Virus record (IMG/VR): IMGVR_UViG_3300029448_000210
Coordinates: 1 to 25,703 of that record
Source: a virus
DNA: 25,703 nt
Strand: one strand, 5' to 3'
The notes under the pieces are model-generated. The model was not told the DNA's origin, searched no databases, and saw only the letters and a list, made by a program, of their open reading frames with translations. Below, piece by piece: positions 1 to 23,247 of the stretch (position 1 is the stretch's first letter; each line of letters opens with the position of its first letter). The translations under genes were made by a program, and so were the position numbers.

Positions 1-198
1 AAAGCACCTGCTTCACCAGAACGTTATCCAATGGTTTACAGAGCTTTTCAACTTAAAACATTGATGGATAAGAGAGCTGAAGCAAACAAAAAAGAAAATA
101 GAATGCGAACTAATGTTGATGCTAAACCTAAGAAAGGGTTGATTGCTAACATGAAAGATCTTGTTGCTAACAATAACAAGCAGAAAGAGACTGCATAA
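1..198 (+). CDS. C-terminal fragment of an unrecognised phage protein
   Basis: Frame 1 is open from the window edge to a TAA at 196-198 and gives the last 65 residues of a protein. The visible part is basic and Lys/Asn-rich (it ends ...NNNKQKETA) with a short block around RYPMVYRAF near the start. The stop overlaps the next start as TAATG (196-200), so it sits in one operon with the HExxH protein. I do not recognise the family, and the fragment is too short to assign a role. Confidence 0.75.
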   Translation, partial: KAPASPERYPMVYRAFQLKTLMDKRAEANKKENRMRTNVDAKPKKGLIANMKDLVANNNKQKETA

Positions 199-1244
199 TG
201 TCATCATCATTAAAAGAACTAAAAGAGTATTTTGCTACAACCCCTGCAGAGTTGCAGGGTGTTGTGAGATGTCCTATGTTTGATGACTTTGATGACAGTG
301 ACCTTTCGCCTAGGCATAAAGAAGTGTGTGACGATCAACGACAACGATTCTTACAAATGATGAAAGGCGCTGAAACGGACAAGTATCTGTTTCAAAACTT
401 CATCGATATGCACAGACATATGATGCGTTCAATCATAGAAACTCGACCTATGTATGAAAATACATACGGTGCTATAATACCCAACACCAGTCGAGGTTTA
501 CCTGTGATAACACCTGTATTGGAAATGCGATCAATCAAGGATGAACACCAAGACGGGCTTCATGCACTAGGTGGTGTTGGAATGGATCATCAAGATGAAC
601 ACGAGAGTCTAATGATAGGTTTTATGTTTTCATATGATTGTCTAGTAGCCCTAAGTGGTTACGGTCTTGAAGCAACTATTATGACACACGAGGCAGTTCA
701 TCTTTGGGAAGATGTTCAACTTTATCATCAAGGTGGTGTTCGAGCTATCAGTGATAGGGTCAAAGATCTTAAAACAGGAAGAGCTGTTTATAAAAAAGCA
801 AGAGAAGAATGGGAAGAAAAACACAGAAATGATCCTCAATATTACAATGTGTTGACCGAACTACCCACTTACCGGGCTTTTGTTGAAACAAAAAGACTGT
901 ATTCAACTCTTAATCCAAGTGAAGACATAGTGACACGAGTGTTTGCTGACAATCACAAGTTGACCTATGATGAAGCACTTGAGGTTGCTCATGCACCTTT
1001 CATGGACATCATGGTTCAGTTGGTTACAGATGATATCAAGATAGATCCAATAAGATTGGCCAAGCATATGCATAGATCAGTTTTGCCTTTTGTTACACCT
1101 CGTGTGAAACCCTTGTTCAAGGAAGTGATAAAATGTCTAAGGGATCATTCGTTGATGAGTGACAAACAATCGATACTAGAGACATACTACAAGGTTATTA
1201 AACGTTGGGCTGAAGAGGCCAAACGAGAAACGGCTTTGGCATAA
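198..1244 (+). CDS. Putative HExxH (gluzincin-like) metallopeptidase-like protein
   Basis: A 348-aa ORF starts at ATG 198, coupled to the upstream stop by TAATG, with an AAAGAGA Shine-Dalgarno-like stretch about 9 nt before it. Residues 163-170 read THEAVHLW, a textbook HExxH zinc-binding motif with two His and a catalytic Glu. About 53 residues later ELPTYRAF (E221) is a reasonable third ligand, as in gluzincin peptidases of the HE-x-x-H ... E-x-x-A-Y type. There is an acidic, His-rich patch at about 129-136. No signal peptide or membrane segment is apparent, so it should be cytoplasmic or packaged. The rest of the protein is unrecognised. The motif alone can occur by chance, so peptidase activity is inference. 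It could act on a host or virion protein, or be a diverged inactive relative. Confidence 0.85.
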   Translation: MSSSLKELKEYFATTPAELQGVVRCPMFDDFDDSDLSPRHKEVCDDQRQRFLQMMKGAETDKYLFQNFIDMHRHMMRSIIETRPMYENTYGAIIPNTSRGLPVITPVLEMRSIKDEHQDGLHALGGVGMDHQDEHESLMIGFMFSYDCLVALSGYGLEATIMTHEAVHLWEDVQLYHQGGVRAISDRVKDLKTGRAVYKKAREEWEEKHRNDPQYYNVLTELPTYRAFVETKRLYSTLNPSEDIVTRVFADNHKLTYDEALEVAHAPFMDIMVQLVTDDIKIDPIRLAKHMHRSVLPFVTPRVKPLFKEVIKCLRDHSLMSDKQSILETYYKVIKRWAEEAKRETALA

Positions 1245-1372: not shown

Positions 1373-1865
1373 TTACTTAGATTGTTTCGTCAAGAGGTGT
1401 TGTGTATTATTTTCCTTATATCTTTCTATACATATACACAGCACCTCAAAGTTACCTTGTAGGTAAACAGCACTATCGCTTGACGCGATAGGCTATAAAC
1501 TTCACTTCGTTCGTTTATAAGTTTCTTCTTCTCTTTCTTTTTAGCCAAGAGAGCTTTTAGCAAATAACCAAAAGCACTCTGCAGAGAGCAACGACACAAT
1601 CTATTACGGTAAAGGGTTTACATATCTTACCAACCTTGTAGGGTGACTACTTCCACTTTGTAAACAATCCGCGTTGTAGATTAACTTCAGTTATAGTTCA
1701 CAAAATCTTGTTAAGTAAAATGTCCAAAACCTAACAAGCATCACTACTCATATTTGTATACCGTCCTAGCCTAACGGTGTGGGTTGCATCTAACCTCAAC
1801 AATAAGGGTGTTGTCAACTTTATGATAATGTGTTGATGCTATATAGCCTGTGTTGGTAGATGTTA

Positions 1866-1889
1866 GCCTAAATGTGTGCCTAAATGTGT
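1866..1889. repeat. Two tandem 12-bp direct repeats
   Basis: GCCTAAATGTGT occurs twice back to back (1866-1877 and 1878-1889) with no mismatch. A related TAGCCTAA also occurs near 1767-1774. The pair is followed at once by ATAAAATGG and the bulged hairpin 1897-1932 (GGTG-T-CTGTAT pairing with ATACAG-CACC). Paired direct repeats ahead of an operon promoter could be a regulator or replication-protein binding site; no binding protein can be named. Confidence 0.6.
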
Positions 1890-1941
1890 ATAAAATGGTG
1901 TCTGTATCCTGTTTTAAGCGTCATACAGCACCAATAAACTT

Positions 1942-2719: not shown

Positions 2720-3122
2720 AAAAGCAATGGAAATGTCAGCTGAAGAAATATTAGCACTAATAAAGAAAAGACAAAATGAAGATAGAGCTAATAGTGGAGT
2801 TGATAAAGAATATGAAGAATACAGAAAACTTCAATATGAACTTTTAGAAAAAGGTCAAGAATATCACAAACTGGGTTGCGAAATGACAGAACTAGAAGCA
2901 ATGATTGATGGATGTTATCCACCTCATTATATGTATTGGTGGGAAGCAGAACTATTAAAAAGGTTACCACATATAACTGCTAAACCAATACGTCGAAGAA
3001 CAAAAAATGGATCACAAGGACCACAAGTAGAAGCACAAGTAGAACAAATAGCAAACCTACGTAGTATGTTAAAAACAAGAAGAACGGCAGTGGAAGATGG
3101 AGAAACAAATAATGCAACATAA
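2703..3122 (+). CDS. Hypothetical coiled-coil protein
   Basis: The product has 139 residues from ATG 2703, with GGAGAG (2693-2698) just upstream. An ATG at 2691 in the same frame would add four residues. The first 65 residues are charged and heptad-like (Glu/Lys/Leu-rich, EEYRKLQYELLEKGQEY), followed by an aromatic patch PPHYMYWWEAELLKRL and a basic stretch KPIRRRTKNG, then another helix. It may be an oligomeric helical protein with a basic nucleic-acid-facing segment. I do not recognise the family. Its start lies inside the previous gene and its stop inside the next one, so the three are probably translated together. Confidence 0.75.
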   Translation: MNKQTKKAMEMSAEEILALIKKRQNEDRANSGVDKEYEEYRKLQYELLEKGQEYHKLGCEMTELEAMIDGCYPPHYMYWWEAELLKRLPHITAKPIRRRTKNGSQGPQVEAQVEQIANLRSMLKTRRTAVEDGETNNAT

Positions 3123-3795
3123 TGGATTTAGTTTTACATATCATAAAGTTCCTTTCCAACAAAGTTATCATCAAATGAAAAATATTAAAGGATATAAAAA
3201 TAATCCTGATTATAAATGTTGGGCTAATGATGTGCATAATGGTGAACTGCATGACCATTTAAAGGGTGGTTGTATTGCTGTTGAAGACTGGTTAAAACAA
3301 AATAATCATGAAAGCAAACTGCATAATAAAACGTTTTTAGGTGAATCTGCTGAAAAGAAAAAAGTTAAAGGACAAAGTAGAAAAGTTTATACTAGAAGCC
3401 GTAAAAAAATGGCACATCATTATCACTTAGATGAAAAACAAAGACAAAACAAATATTTTCGTAAAGTGTTTGGTGATCCTTTTTATGAAGTTAAAACTCA
3501 TTGGACTATTGCTGAAATCATAGCCGTGATGATAAGAAAAATAAACCAAGAACAAAAGAATGGAATGTTAGTGCATTTTAATCTGCGTGAACTTACACGA
3601 TGGAATCAAATGATAGAACATTTACATAATAGTGATAGATTAACAGATATTAACGGTGAATATACAGATTGGCGTCAACTTAAAGTTAGTATGCACGAAG
3701 CATTTCAAAAAAATACACCTGATGATGAATGGCAAAACATTTTGCCTGATGAACTTAAATCAAAGTTTGCACCAAAACAAACACAAGACTTATAA
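3112..3795 (+). CDS. Hypothetical basic protein, last gene of the operon
   Basis: The product has 227 residues from ATG 3112 with GGAG at 3099-3102. An ATG at 3097 in frame is the alternative, but its Shine-Dalgarno would be too close. The protein is rich in His, Lys, Asn and Trp. A strongly basic segment KKKVKGQSRKVYTRSRKKM around residues 80-100 could bind nucleic acid, and two segments around Trp (THWTIAEI, DWRQLKV) look like helical domains. No named family recognised. Its 3' end overlaps the opposing membrane-protein gene by 41 bp. Confidence 0.8.
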   Translation: MQHNGFSFTYHKVPFQQSYHQMKNIKGYKNNPDYKCWANDVHNGELHDHLKGGCIAVEDWLKQNNHESKLHNKTFLGESAEKKKVKGQSRKVYTRSRKKMAHHYHLDEKQRQNKYFRKVFGDPFYEVKTHWTIAEIIAVMIRKINQEQKNGMLVHFNLRELTRWNQMIEHLHNSDRLTDINGEYTDWRQLKVSMHEAFQKNTPDDEWQNILPDELKSKFAPKQTQDL

Positions 3796-19773: not shown

Positions 19774-20703
19774 TTATGCACTTAATGATACACAAGCTGA
19801 TGCGTCAATCACTACTGAACCTGCTGAGAACTCAGCCGCTATCAATGTTGATAGTTTCTGAGGCACATAGTTCACCATAGTTGTGATGTCTTTACCAACT
19901 GCCATACCAATAGCATCTTTGTGGAATGCATATGAGTATGTTTCATTAGCATCTACTGCCGTTAATAGGTTCGACATGATGATGTTGAAACCTAAAACGT
20001 TTGGTAAAATACCAGTTCTCATTGCATCTGATAATGGACCATCTGTGTTTGACACAAAAGATGAACCTAAGATGTCACCGTATGTTGCTGAATCAACAAC
20101 AAGGTATCTGTCGTTCATTGGAACGTCTTTAGAGTTTAGTGCATTGTGAACTGATTGTAAATCAGCTCTAACCAATGTTCCTGATGTAGCTTCTGCTACT
20201 GCTGTCATATCACCTCTTGCTGTGTCTAATGCACCAATGATTACTGAATCATAAGCACGAGACATAGCCGCTGCGATTGATGTTGCATAAGCTGATCTTA
20301 AATCTACATTAGTTTTTAATGCATCAAAATCGTCAACGTATTCACCTGTTGAATAGTTGTCCAATGTTGCTGTTTTATTTGTGTGGTTCATTACATCAAC
20401 TGTTGCCGCTGTTGTTCCAGTGCCGTCACCGATGAATGTTCCTGAATCTAAATCAAGTGTTCCTGAAGATCCAGTATTGATATCAATAGCCGATAATGCT
20501 TCAATGTCTTGTTTAGCTGTTTTATTTTTGATAACACCCGCTTTACCCAATACTGGGAATCTGTATGTGCTACCTACAACGCCTCTAACTGTTCTTACTG
20601 CACTTTGAAGGTTTGAAGCCTTTTGTTGTGCGATGTGAGTTACCTCATCACCAAACATAGTTACGAAAGCGTTGCTTGACAAGTTGTTTCCTACTGCTGC
20701 CAT
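19774..20703 (-). CDS. Major capsid protein
   Basis: This 309-aa protein opens MAAVGNNLSSNAFVTMFGDEVTHIAQQ, with AVRTVRGVVGSTYRFPVLGK after it, as in marine podovirus capsids of the HK97 fold. Later segments VDDFDALKTNVDLRSAYATS and the ALNSKDVPMNDRYLVVDS block (about 190-207) are typical of the family. It assembles on the scaffold protein coded upstream and forms the icosahedral head. AAAGG 10 nt before the ATG is the ribosome site. It is flanked by a repeat-rich leader and a terminator, suggesting a separate, abundant transcript. Confidence 0.93.
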   Translation of the reverse strand: MAAVGNNLSSNAFVTMFGDEVTHIAQQKASNLQSAVRTVRGVVGSTYRFPVLGKAGVIKNKTAKQDIEALSAIDINTGSSGTLDLDSGTFIGDGTGTTAATVDVMNHTNKTATLDNYSTGEYVDDFDALKTNVDLRSAYATSIAAAMSRAYDSVIIGALDTARGDMTAVAEATSGTLVRADLQSVHNALNSKDVPMNDRYLVVDSATYGDILGSSFVSNTDGPLSDAMRTGILPNVLGFNIIMSNLLTAVDANETYSYAFHKDAIGMAVGKDITTMVNYVPQKLSTLIAAEFSAGSVVIDASACVSLSA

Positions 20704-20725
20704 GATTTTTAGCCTTTCATAATAA

Positions 20726-20743
20726 GATCACTTATTTGTGACC
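20726..20743 (-). promoter_or_regulatory. Hairpin in the capsid mRNA leader
   Basis: On the minus strand GGTCAC and GTGATC enclose AAATAA, giving a 6-bp stem with one G-U pair that only works in the capsid-sense RNA. It lies a short distance before the AAAGG ribosome site. It could stabilise the message or be a processing site. Confidence 0.4.
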
Positions 20744-20746
20744 TGT

Positions 20747-20863
20747 TGAGTTATCCGCGTTATGAGTTATCCGTGTTGCAAGGGCTTGCGTTTCGAAAAC
20801 AAGTTGTCCTATTAAGTTGGGCCCGTCTAACTGTTCAAGATGTTGTGTGAGTTATCCTTGCGG
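20747..20863. repeat. Three-copy TGAGTTATCC repeat before capsid
   Basis: Two 16-bp units stand in tandem, TGAGTTATCCGCGTTA (20747-20762) and TGAGTTATCCGTGTTG (20763-20778), sharing 14 of 16 bases. A third unit at 20848-20863 shares the first ten bases and a GCG-like tail. Between them lie the small inverted repeat GCAAG-GG-CTTGC and the palindrome TTTCGAAA. This is the 183-bp spacer between HNH gene and capsid, a natural place for a late promoter or regulator sites. Confidence 0.6.
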
Positions 20864-20886
20864 GCTCCACTGAGTCTTGTATGTGA

Positions 20887-21222
20887 TTATTTATCCACTT
20901 TTTGTATGCGATTTTTTTTGAACGTTCCCCAACGGCCCTTTGACTTGGCATCATCTAGATTTTGTTTGTGTGTGCCTATGGTCAGGTGTTTGGGGTTACA
21001 GCATTGAGGTGTATCACAACTATGAAGCACCACATTGGCGTCAATGTGTTTGTGATTTTTCACACGATATAACACGGTGGCCAAACGGTGAGCCAACCAA
21101 TGCTTACCACAACATACTGCTACACCGTAGCCTTGGCCGTTCCTCGCTCGTTGCCACAACCAACATCCACTGTTGCTGACTTTGATATACTGTTCGAACC
21201 GTTGCTTGGTATAATGTGCCAT
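20887..21222 (-). CDS. HNH homing-type endonuclease
   Basis: The product has 111 residues from ATG 21222; a GTG three bases upstream is possible. It has the order of the HNH_3-type free-standing phage endonucleases: CWLWQRARNGQGYG near residue 20, AHRLATVLY near 44, then the zinc and catalytic block LHSCDTPQCCNPKHL at about 66-80 and GTHKQNLDD after it. Length is normal for this group, with no added DNA-binding domain visible. The Shine-Dalgarno is weak. It lies alone between scaffold and capsid modules in DNA of higher GC, as expected for a selfish insertion. The adjacent coding genes look intact. Confidence 0.88.
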   Translation of the reverse strand: MAHYTKQRFEQYIKVSNSGCWLWQRARNGQGYGVAVCCGKHWLAHRLATVLYRVKNHKHIDANVVLHSCDTPQCCNPKHLTIGTHKQNLDDAKSKGRWGTFKKNRIQKVDK

Positions 21223-21343
21223 CACAGTTATTTACAGTGAAGACATGGTGGATTATGTTATGTTTGAATGCACACGCCTAGAGGCAGATGAATATACGTG
21301 AATATCGTGACAGTTCTTCGCGGAGCACAACACTCAGTGGAAA

Positions 21344-21363
21344 TGGATCAAGGTGGATCAAGG
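21344..21363. repeat. Two tandem 10-bp repeats
   Basis: TGGATCAAGG occurs twice without a gap or mismatch (21344-21353, 21354-21363), followed by TG. It lies in the spacer upstream of the HNH start. Confidence 0.6.
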
Positions 21364-21463
21364 TGAATAAGAATCCTTTAAGCAAAAATAGGTGAGATTA
21401 TTTTCACACTAGCCACCACTAGTATTTTCAATAGTTTTTTGGGTGCCCATCCTCAAACTGGCC

Positions 21464-21627
21464 CCATCTTGGCCAAAGTGGAGATAGTTTTATGAATGTG
21501 TAGCTGTATAACACTTCAGTTCACAAAAAATCTGCTGTAATATCAATGACTTACACCACCGTGATGAACCTGTGTGTATGCTGTTGTGCAAGATGACTAT
21601 ATGTTGTGCCACGGTTGGCCAAGATGG
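21464..21627. repeat. 13-bp perfect inverted repeat
   Basis: CCATCTTGGCCAA (21464-21476) and TTGGCCAAGATGG (21615-21627) are exact reverse complements, 138 bp apart. Each contains the palindrome TTGGCCAA. They could close a long RNA stem or be ends of a small inserted element. Confidence 0.6.
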
Positions 21628-21742
21628 AAAGGGAGAGTGTCCCCATATGGCCTTTTAAAGATGAATGCTTTCCTGGCGAGCGGCGGCGTGCGAAGAATGT
21701 TCACACTATTCACACAGTTCATCATAGTGTATTCATCTTGCT

Positions 21743-21808
21743 CCATCTCCATAGAATGTTGTGTCCATCTCCATAGAATGTTGTGTCCATCTCCATAGAA
21801 TGTTGTGT
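21743..21808. repeat. Three perfect tandem 22-bp repeats
   Basis: A 22-bp unit beginning CCATCTCCATAGAATG and ending TTGTGT is repeated three times without a mismatch (21743-21764, 21765-21786, 21787-21808). It is the most regular repeat in the window. About 100 bp separate it from the small membrane-protein gene. The unit length is that of iterons or protein-binding arrays. Confidence 0.9.
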
Positions 21809-21911
21809 CCAAGTGTTCACTATGCTCTACTACTCACTAATAGTTTCAATAGTTCAAGTATTCTGCTGTGTATCTGCTGTGTCTTTGCTGTGTGTGTGCG
21901 TATATGTGCTA

Positions 21912-21998
21912 CTAAAGACCCAATGTGTGTGCTATGTAGTTCAATGTCAAATACATCAACATCACTGCTATTATTGTTGTTATTGCAAACTTCATCAT
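21912..21998 (-). CDS. Tiny transmembrane protein (28 aa)
   Basis: ATG 21998 comes one base after the stop of the previous gene (TAACATG), with AAGG 5 nt upstream. The 28 residues begin MMKFAITTIIAVMLMYLTL and form nearly one membrane span, ending in a short polar tail. Single-span microproteins of this kind are common in phages, often with lysis or inhibitor roles, but none can be assigned. The same frame is open further upstream, inside the neighbouring gene; that part is a shadow. Confidence 0.45.
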   Translation of the reverse strand: MMKFAITTIIAVMLMYLTLNYIAHTLGL

Positions 21999-21999
21999 G

Positions 22000-22281
22000 T
22001 TAACCTTCACTGCGTTTGTCTTGTAATGCTGGTGGATTGAAATAACTTTCAAATACCCAAATAAATCGTCTTGCATCCATTTCACTTTCAAATGCGAATC
22101 TGAAGTTGGTTTGTCCATCAGTATGTGTGTTCCAATGTCTAAAACAACAGGTGTTGCACCATTTGAGTAATCGTGCTACTTCGTGGTCCTGTAGTCGATC
22201 AAACTCAACCCAATGTCTTTGCATTTCGATTAAACTCTCGTATTGTTCGGTGTTCTTCCCTATTGTGTTGCCATTTTCCAT
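22000..22281 (-). CDS. Hypothetical protein
   Basis: The product has up to 93 residues from ATG 22281, with AGAGA 5 nt upstream. ATG 22224 (74 aa, GAGAG 11 nt upstream) is an equally possible start that reduces overlap with the preceding gene from 77 to 20 nt. It is rich in aromatic residues, Cys and Arg (LLKWCNTCCFRHWNTH) and ends FNPPALQDKRSEG. It belongs to no family I recognise. It continues the scaffold operon. Confidence 0.65.
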   Translation of the reverse strand: MENGNTIGKNTEQYESLIEMQRHWVEFDRLQDHEVARLLKWCNTCCFRHWNTHTDGQTNFRFAFESEMDARRFIWVFESYFNPPALQDKRSEG

Positions 22282-22489
22282 ATATTTCTCTGTATTGCTT
22301 TCTATCTCGGTGATATAATGTTGCTTTATTCAATCTTCTAGTTAACCAATCACACATCATCTTGCGGATTCTATATTCCATATCACTGGTGTTGCCTGGA
22401 TATTCTTCAACCCTTCTGTGCCACAGGTCTACACTTTTGGCAAGTTCTCGCCTGTTTTCGTAGGGTTGTGGCACCAATCTAGGTTTCAT
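22205..22489 (-). CDS. Hypothetical basic protein
   Basis: The product has 94 residues; ATG 22489 overlaps the scaffold stop as TAATG. It is strongly basic and rich in Arg, Tyr and His (LTRRLNKATLYHRDRKQYRE), probably helical. No family recognised. Its charge would fit nucleic-acid or scaffold binding, but this is only inference from composition. Confidence 0.7.
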   Translation of the reverse strand: MKPRLVPQPYENRRELAKSVDLWHRRVEEYPGNTSDMEYRIRKMMCDWLTRRLNKATLYHRDRKQYREIYGKWQHNREEHRTIREFNRNAKTLG

Positions 22490-23247
22490 TAGCTTCTTGG
22501 CATTCTTTCTAACTGTTGATACAGTCTATAAAGTTCAGCTCTTGTGTTTTCTCCAACACTATCACCTTGAGGTAGTGCATACTCTTTACTAGCACGGATC
22601 TCATTGATCTTCTGACGTATGTCCACTGCACTTGCACCTGGTGTTGCTCCACCTTCTGCGATAGGGTTCACACCATTTCTATATGCCATTGCATCTGCTA
22701 GGATTTCAAGTCCTTGTGCTGTGTTTGCCAGTGGCATTGCCAATGTTGTTTGATCCAATGTCTTTGAAAAGTTCCTTAAAGCACCCATTTTGCTGTCATA
22801 TTCTGTGCCCCAGTTGCTTTTCAATGCACCTTGTTCCACTGTTGGATCTGCTTGTGGCGTTTGATTCTGATATTGTTCTGCAAATGCCTGTATTGAATCT
22901 GAATATAAACCCAACATACCTTTGGCCTGTTCTTGTGTTAGTCCATAGTGTTTGAATACTTCGTTTGCCTGTGACTGTTGCTCTGTGCTCATGTCCAATC
23001 CTATGGTTTGTGCGTGTGAATAATCATAAGCATCTGGTATTTGTGGTGCTTTCTCTTGTATTTTCTTTTCAAGTTCACCGTATGATTTAGCAAAGTCTTC
23101 TGCTGATTTAAACTTCTCTGGTAACCAGTTGGGTCTATCAGTGTTTGTGTCAGTGACAGTTTCAGTTGTTTCAGTTGGGGCTTCTGTTGTTGTAGTAGTT
23201 GAATCTTGTTCTAGCAATGATTCATTTGCTGGTGTTTGATCTTCCAT
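22489..23247 (-). CDS. Scaffolding protein (gp9-like)
   Basis: This 252-aa protein has an acidic Thr/Glu-rich N-terminus (residues 1-37), then RPNWLPEKFKSAEDFAKSYG at about 38-57, a hallmark of podovirus scaffolds. A helical, Gln-rich body follows, then a C-terminal helix (RAELYRLYQQLERMP). T7 gp9 is 307 aa. It guides capsid assembly and leaves the procapsid before DNA fills it. GGAGA precedes the start. It sits between portal genes and capsid, although several small genes and an HNH insertion separate it from capsid here. Confidence 0.88.
   Translation of the reverse strand: MEDQTPANESLLEQDSTTTTTEAPTETTETVTDTNTDRPNWLPEKFKSAEDFAKSYGELEKKIQEKAPQIPDAYDYSHAQTIGLDMSTEQQSQANEVFKHYGLTQEQAKGMLGLYSDSIQAFAEQYQNQTPQADPTVEQGALKSNWGTEYDSKMGALRNFSKTLDQTTLAMPLANTAQGLEILADAMAYRNGVNPIAEGGATPGASAVDIRQKINEIRASKEYALPQGDSVGENTRAELYRLYQQLERMPRS

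Follow-up and report, generated by a model that had tools for sequence, protein, structure and literature searches.

A candidate family of structured RNAs with predicted pseudoknots in a gene-free gap of uncultured phage genomes

Very few large structured RNAs are, to our knowledge, known from phages, and the best-known of them, GOLLD and ROOL, are functionally still unclear. Both are large phage RNAs that form RNA-only cages and often lie near tRNA islands; GOLLD is often over 800 nt long, and ROOL is phage encoded, contains several pseudoknots and has no known protein partner (PMC12286853). The window that we analyzed, a stretch of 25,703 nucleotides corresponding to bases 1 to 25703 of a 32,035-bp virus record, contains a candidate RNA in a gap at 1373-2116 that a preliminary description had likened to these two. 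It resembles GOLLD in being large, structured and extensively covarying and in coming from phages in a marine setting, but its inferred unit of ~466 nt and core of 324 nt depart from the GOLLD pattern of often more than 800 nt with a conserved 3' and a variable 5' half. With ROOL it shares a complex phage fold with several pseudoknots (three here, two of them strongly supported), a general resemblance rather than homology, and it differs from GOLLD and ROOL alike in lacking both an Rfam match and a nearby tRNA, since ARAGORN finds no tRNA gene in the window. We searched Rfam 15 (4227 families) at gathering cut-offs and at relaxed E-value limits of 5 and 2. The whole window gave no match at the gathering cut-off, six relatives gave nothing near a cut-off, and the GOLLD and ROOL covariance models matched neither strand of the window or of these relatives at either relaxed limit, so that by this test the RNA is neither GOLLD nor ROOL and the suggested link to them has no match at any useful score behind it. 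Matches at relaxed limits were chance only (microRNA models and the like). No paper describing such an RNA was found in the open-access literature. In kind the RNA is broadly like GOLLD and ROOL, and it is most aptly described as a new family, adding to the phage RNAs one that Rfam models set apart from both.

The gap is flanked by plus-strand genes, a 348-aa gene with an overlapping 42-aa ORF before it and a 200-aa gene after it, and these neighbors had no family match in Pfam or PHROGs. No gene fits 1373-2116, where the ORFs are only short and not conserved, in agreement with the gene-free gap first described. The 348-aa protein (198-1244, plus strand) is kept beside the RNA in the sister phages L005 and L006, and a search of viral_contigs with it returned no relatives.

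A search with the 200-aa gene yielded three relatives, two of which retained the gap at 73-74% DNA identity, and further loci were found via conserved strings and then gapped patterns. A covariance model built from 17 sequences with a plus-strand structure (R1) recovered 19 records with a single copy each, and also found 11 more records at 243-271 bits, none of them used in building R1, with seven sequences among the unused ones. R1 was later replaced by R2 on the RNA strand, which the window core, itself among R2's building sequences, matches over model positions 1-335 with 254.9 bits (E 8e-65). In total the family comprises 30 records of uncultured phages (the window and 29 others) with 24 distinct sequences. 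With four members as blastn queries, 50,697 phage records gave nothing or short chance matches, and a pattern scan of ~85,000 prokaryote genomes, with a pattern that would recover roughly 70% of known members, found no homolog. Chance pattern matches were discarded in prokaryote genomes (L022-L024, inside or adjoining coding genes) and in viral contigs (L025, L026, L028, L034, L036 and L038). Judged by these comparisons, the gap holds a previously uncatalogued RNA family, whose predicted features are collected in Table 1.

Table 1. Predicted features of the RNA locus, in window coordinates
Feature	Position	Strand	Basis
Inferred RNA gene (start ~1935, 3' hairpins ~1520-1470)	1470-1935	minus	promoter-like site, conserved core, 3' hairpins
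Promoter-like site TTGACT-18-TATTAT	1942-1971	minus	sequence; sister-phage counterpart
5' leader hairpin GGTGCTGTAT...ATACAGACACC	1897-1932	minus	
Leader with AGGC motifs	1846-1884	minus	family-wide YAGGCA repeat density
Conserved core, 324 nt in window	1544-1867	minus	R2 model match
Pseudoknot PK2, 1839-1835 with 1786-1790 (P9 loop)	1786-1839	minus	covarying pair E<=0.005; permutation 0/20000
PK3, P10 loop with adjoining strand	1805-1819	minus	permutation 91/20000
Helix P10, 1812-1810 with 1798-1800	1798-1812	minus	100% paired; pair E<=0.005
Helix P9, 1794-1792 with 1783-1785	1783-1794	minus	alignment pair counts
Helix P8, 1778-1774 with 1760-1764, loop TAGGCTAGG	1760-1778	minus	100% paired; third pair UA/AU/CG
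Helix P7, hairpin CTTGTTA/TAACAAG	1707-1738	minus	pair counts, wobbles
Helix P5, enclosing P6 (1692-1683)	1658-1703	minus	two pairs E<=0.005; 96% paired
Pseudoknot PK1, CAACG 1676-1672 with CGTTG 1593-1589	1589-1676	minus	permutation 0/20000
Helix P4	1634-1642	minus	GNRA tetraloop in 10/24 members, window not among them
Helix P3, GGTAA/TTACC, near-invariant loop	1608-1631	minus	pair E<=0.005; 92% paired
Helix P1, hairpin, invariant CTAAAAG at end	1548-1580	minus	energy, wobbles
Purine-rich linker AAAAAGAAAGAGAAGAAGAAA	1521-1543	minus	family purine content
Two terminator-like 3' hairpins, 1519-1494 and 1491-1473	1473-1519	minus	sequence, energy

Three alignments (A2, A5 and A6) were made with MAFFT, blind to structure, and pairing was counted on them for a structure drawn by hand, with twelve helices (P1, P3-P10 and the pseudoknots PK1-PK3). 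In A2, in plus orientation, 82.6% of cells were paired, against 67% after shuffling and 36-38% with slid partners. The corresponding values for A6 (minus orientation, 24 sequences) were 90.5%, 73.1% and 38-44%; some of the counted sequences had served in drawing the structure, which biases the slid control in its favor. Both sides had changed in 46 of 60 pairs in A6, and its covariation score of 0.501 compared with 0.193 for shuffles, none of 500 of which matched it. An in-house covariation test along the lines of R-scape, in which 100 null alignments preserve the tree and the number of substitutions on each branch, returned five pairs with E<=0.005, two in P5 and one each in P10, P3 and PK2, all of them 96-100% standard pairs. 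Altogether nine standard-pairing pairs had E<1, and two further pairs (E 0.08-0.2) were not standard pairs and are attributed to group differences. When arms were reassigned between sequences 20,000 times, no reassignment paired as well as the native arms of PK1 and PK2, and for PK3, the weakest helix, 91 did, although these permutations overstate significance somewhat because the sequences are related. Compensatory changes, whose absence from homologous gaps the preliminary description had named as evidence against an RNA, were looked for and found in nearly every helix. With 24 distinct homologs and three pseudoknots, this supports all twelve predicted helices, two of the pseudoknots strongly, and we regard it as practically certain that the gap encodes a structured RNA.

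The stems first picked out by eye bear on this conserved structure in different ways. The 14-bp stem at 1394-1407/1434-1447 is exact and strong (-21.1 kcal/mol on the plus strand, z -6.1), and falls outside the region common to the family; on the 3' side of the RNA, this hairpin has a covarying counterpart in L005 and L006 (GTGCTGTGTG/CACACAGCAC) and no U-run on either strand. The stem at 1548-1558/1570-1580 is present and forms part of P1. From the proposed nested set of three helices at 1598-1682, the pairing 1608-1612/1627-1631 survives as P3, but the set as a whole is not the conserved structure, and the conserved partner of its GTAAAC arm (1659-1664) lies instead at ~1697-1702, in P5. In folding energy, the gap taken as a whole does better than 20 shuffles (z -4.9 on the plus strand, -2.6 on the minus), an excess due to a few hairpins, but the likely RNA span at 1470-1935 is not outstanding (z -1.2 plus, -1.4 minus), and the conserved core averages -0.3 (plus) and -0.7 (minus) over 24 members. 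Because the energy of the likely RNA hardly beats that of shuffles, the case rests on comparison and not on folding energy.

Watson-Crick covariation is blind to strand, and wobble pairs are informative. With stems found sequence by sequence and A·C and G·T weighted equally, flanked plus-strand mismatches numbered 11 A·C to 1 G·T in P5, 14 to 0 in P7 and 21 to 5 in P1; since A·C on the plus strand is U·G on the minus strand, wobbles in the conserved stems favor the minus strand. By alignment columns the minus strand has 80 G·U against 34 A·C in total, with P9 as an exception (0 against 7) that favors plus. The RNAalifold consensus is -32.2 on the minus strand and -17.9 on the plus, the nested structure is more stable on the minus strand in 19 of 24 sequences, and the P1 hairpin reaches -17.1 kcal/mol there against -9.6 on the plus strand. 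Four-base loops of P4 are GNRA in 10 of 16 cases on the minus strand, in five sequences (GAAA, GAGA, GTAA, GCAA and GCGA), and in 1 of 16 on the plus. These tests mutually agree and are only partly independent, and we consider it very likely that the RNA is read from the minus strand. The plus-strand preference first drawn from wobble is true of the 14-bp stem but does not extend to the conserved stems, which illustrates that single-sequence folding and single-stem wobble can mislead on strand.

On the minus strand, 11 of the 24 loci have a sigma-70-like site scoring at least 10 of 12 on the 5' side of the core, compared with 6% of shuffles that preserve single-base composition only (binomial 5e-8), and plus-strand promoters upstream of the core are not enriched. 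Two sister phages have TTGACT-18-TAAAAT at the place matching the promoter-like site in the window. Good plus-strand promoters lie past the core and read away from it (2021-2050 in the window); those in L048, L057 and L042 are perfect TTGACA-17-TATAAT sites (12 of 12) about 450-550 bases past the core start. This arrangement would have the RNA and the plus-strand genes that follow read divergently out of one promoter region. The leader is rich in YAGGCA repeats (TGCCTR on the plus strand), with 10.6 per kb across loci where the rest of that strand has 0.93, and AGGC recurs in the P8 loop. The linker between the core and the 3' hairpins is purine rich throughout the family (mean 0.76 purine), and the terminator-like hairpins carry a run of U5-U6 in several relatives and a weak U-run in the window. 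The RNA gene probably extends from about 1935 down to about 1470 (~466 nt, both ends predicted from these features), and we consider it likely to be a stand-alone gene.

Genes neighboring the RNA differ among relatives and include tail-fiber, terminase, GNAT, glycosyltransferase, HNH endonuclease and no-family genes. A podovirus connector occurs in 7 of 31 searched records, and a tail-tip-like protein (PF13550) in the L050 record suggests that this phage is a siphovirus, so the family appears to occur around podovirus-type and probably also siphovirus-type modules. In L004, a close relative, the core is replaced by unrelated DNA and the flanking leader is kept (about 3100-3760); the replacement DNA has a minus-strand ORF of ~90 codons and small plus-strand ORFs. 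The RNA was also absent from the three cultured phages, related by capsid, in which it was looked for. Because its core is missing from L004 the RNA looks accessory, a pattern that its absence from the three capsid relatives and its varying neighbors also fit, and L004, as a near relative without the core, offers a natural comparison.

The explanation that we favor overall, with moderate confidence, is a stand-alone, accessory noncoding RNA gene on the minus strand whose product most likely acts in trans. Transcription would start from the sigma-70-like promoter at about 1971-1942, and the transcript would adopt a compact core fold containing three pseudoknots and terminate at one or two hairpins near 1520-1470, head-on with plus-strand genes. 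During infection the folded RNA would then operate in trans, serving as a scaffold or decoy, its AGGC-repeat leader and the further AGGC in the P8 loop potentially offering several copies of one putative binding site. The role of scaffold or decoy is tentative in itself, the trans action and the binding partner being conjectured indirectly; it is the best-supported guess given the RNA's own promoter-like site, the head-on genes in several genomes including the window, and the lack of a constant gene partner. A counterpoint to the stand-alone reading is that in some relatives, for example L047 and L046, a minus-strand gene starts just past the RNA, which may make it a leader in those genomes. 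It is conceivable, if somewhat doubtful, that the family represents a new class of accessory phage RNA found across morphotypes, which would either form an RNA-only particle, like GOLLD and ROOL, or work in trans, its triple-pseudoknot fold being a scaffold on which repeated AGGC sites are offered to a factor of the host or the phage. At ~460 nt the RNA is small enough for structural work and genetics, with a fold, strand and boundaries defined for testing.

The RNA could instead act in cis on a following minus-strand gene, as a leader or attenuator that is either riboswitch-like or an antitermination RNA, and a minus-strand ORF does follow in L047, L053, L046, L031, L041, L045 and L048, with terminator-like hairpins between. 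We consider this unlikely, as the following gene is not conserved (an HNH endonuclease, proteins without assignment), and in the window, as in L044, L032 and others, the adjacent gene past the RNA lies on the other strand, leaving no gene there to regulate. The put antitermination RNAs of HK022 are far smaller and act in cis at operon starts; the present RNA has phage RNA hairpins in common with them, but the genes after it vary or face the other way.

ColE1 RNA II, a replication primer, has its own promoter, a large folded RNA and a hybrid-forming 3' tract. By analogy, the core could position the purine-rich 3' tract to hybridize with the template and be processed to a primer at an R-loop origin. 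The order of putative promoter, large fold and a purine-rich tract (mean 0.76) that could hybridize is the same, and an unsystematic look recognized no DNA polymerase in the window. However, the accessory distribution, including the core-less close relative L004, is unlike that of ColE1 RNA II (homology being compared through Rfam alone), GC-skew has no turn at the RNA and reaches its maximum near 3.6 kb, where gene direction changes, and the purine tract may simply mirror the tail of a terminator on the plus strand, making a primer quite improbable. We hold a structured RNA on the plus strand, as first proposed, to be highly improbable: the better whole-gap folding z and the wobbles of P9 and of the 14-bp stem speak for it, but the minus strand is favored by the A·C versus G·T counts, the alifold and P1 energies, the GNRA loops and the promoter enrichment alike. 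An element acting only as duplex DNA (an origin or packaging site, both raised initially, or an integration site, with palindromes that mimic RNA stems) is hardly credible despite terminase genes within about 2 kb in several relatives and the palindromes possible in minus-strand origin or cruciform sites, as compensatory changes in pseudoknots, strand-specific G·U pairs and GNRA loops are signatures of RNA.

Head-tail connector, capsid and tail proteins mark the window phage as a podovirus, and its capsid shares ~30% identity with the capsids of marine phages including CKB-S2, MEP301 and EXVC031P. The final 98 bases of the record repeat its start, minus the first ~2 bases (window 1-98 against L029 6339-6436), which indicates a probably complete, circular genome of about 31.9 kb; IMG/VR lists the record without end repeats. 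A minus-strand ORF of 409 aa at L029 4029-5258 (record 29628-30857) resembles a tyrosine recombinase, with weak Pfam support (PF14659, E 3e-4), and given this ORF the phage may be temperate. A search for the PF00589 integrase returned none. Between the capsid and scaffold genes, a minus-strand ORF at 20887-21225 resembles an HNH-type homing endonuclease (PF05551 and PF13392, both under the curated cut-off), and a short tandem repeat of ATTCTATGGAGATGGACACA-like units lies at about 21750-21810, within a region of higher G+C at 20400-22800.
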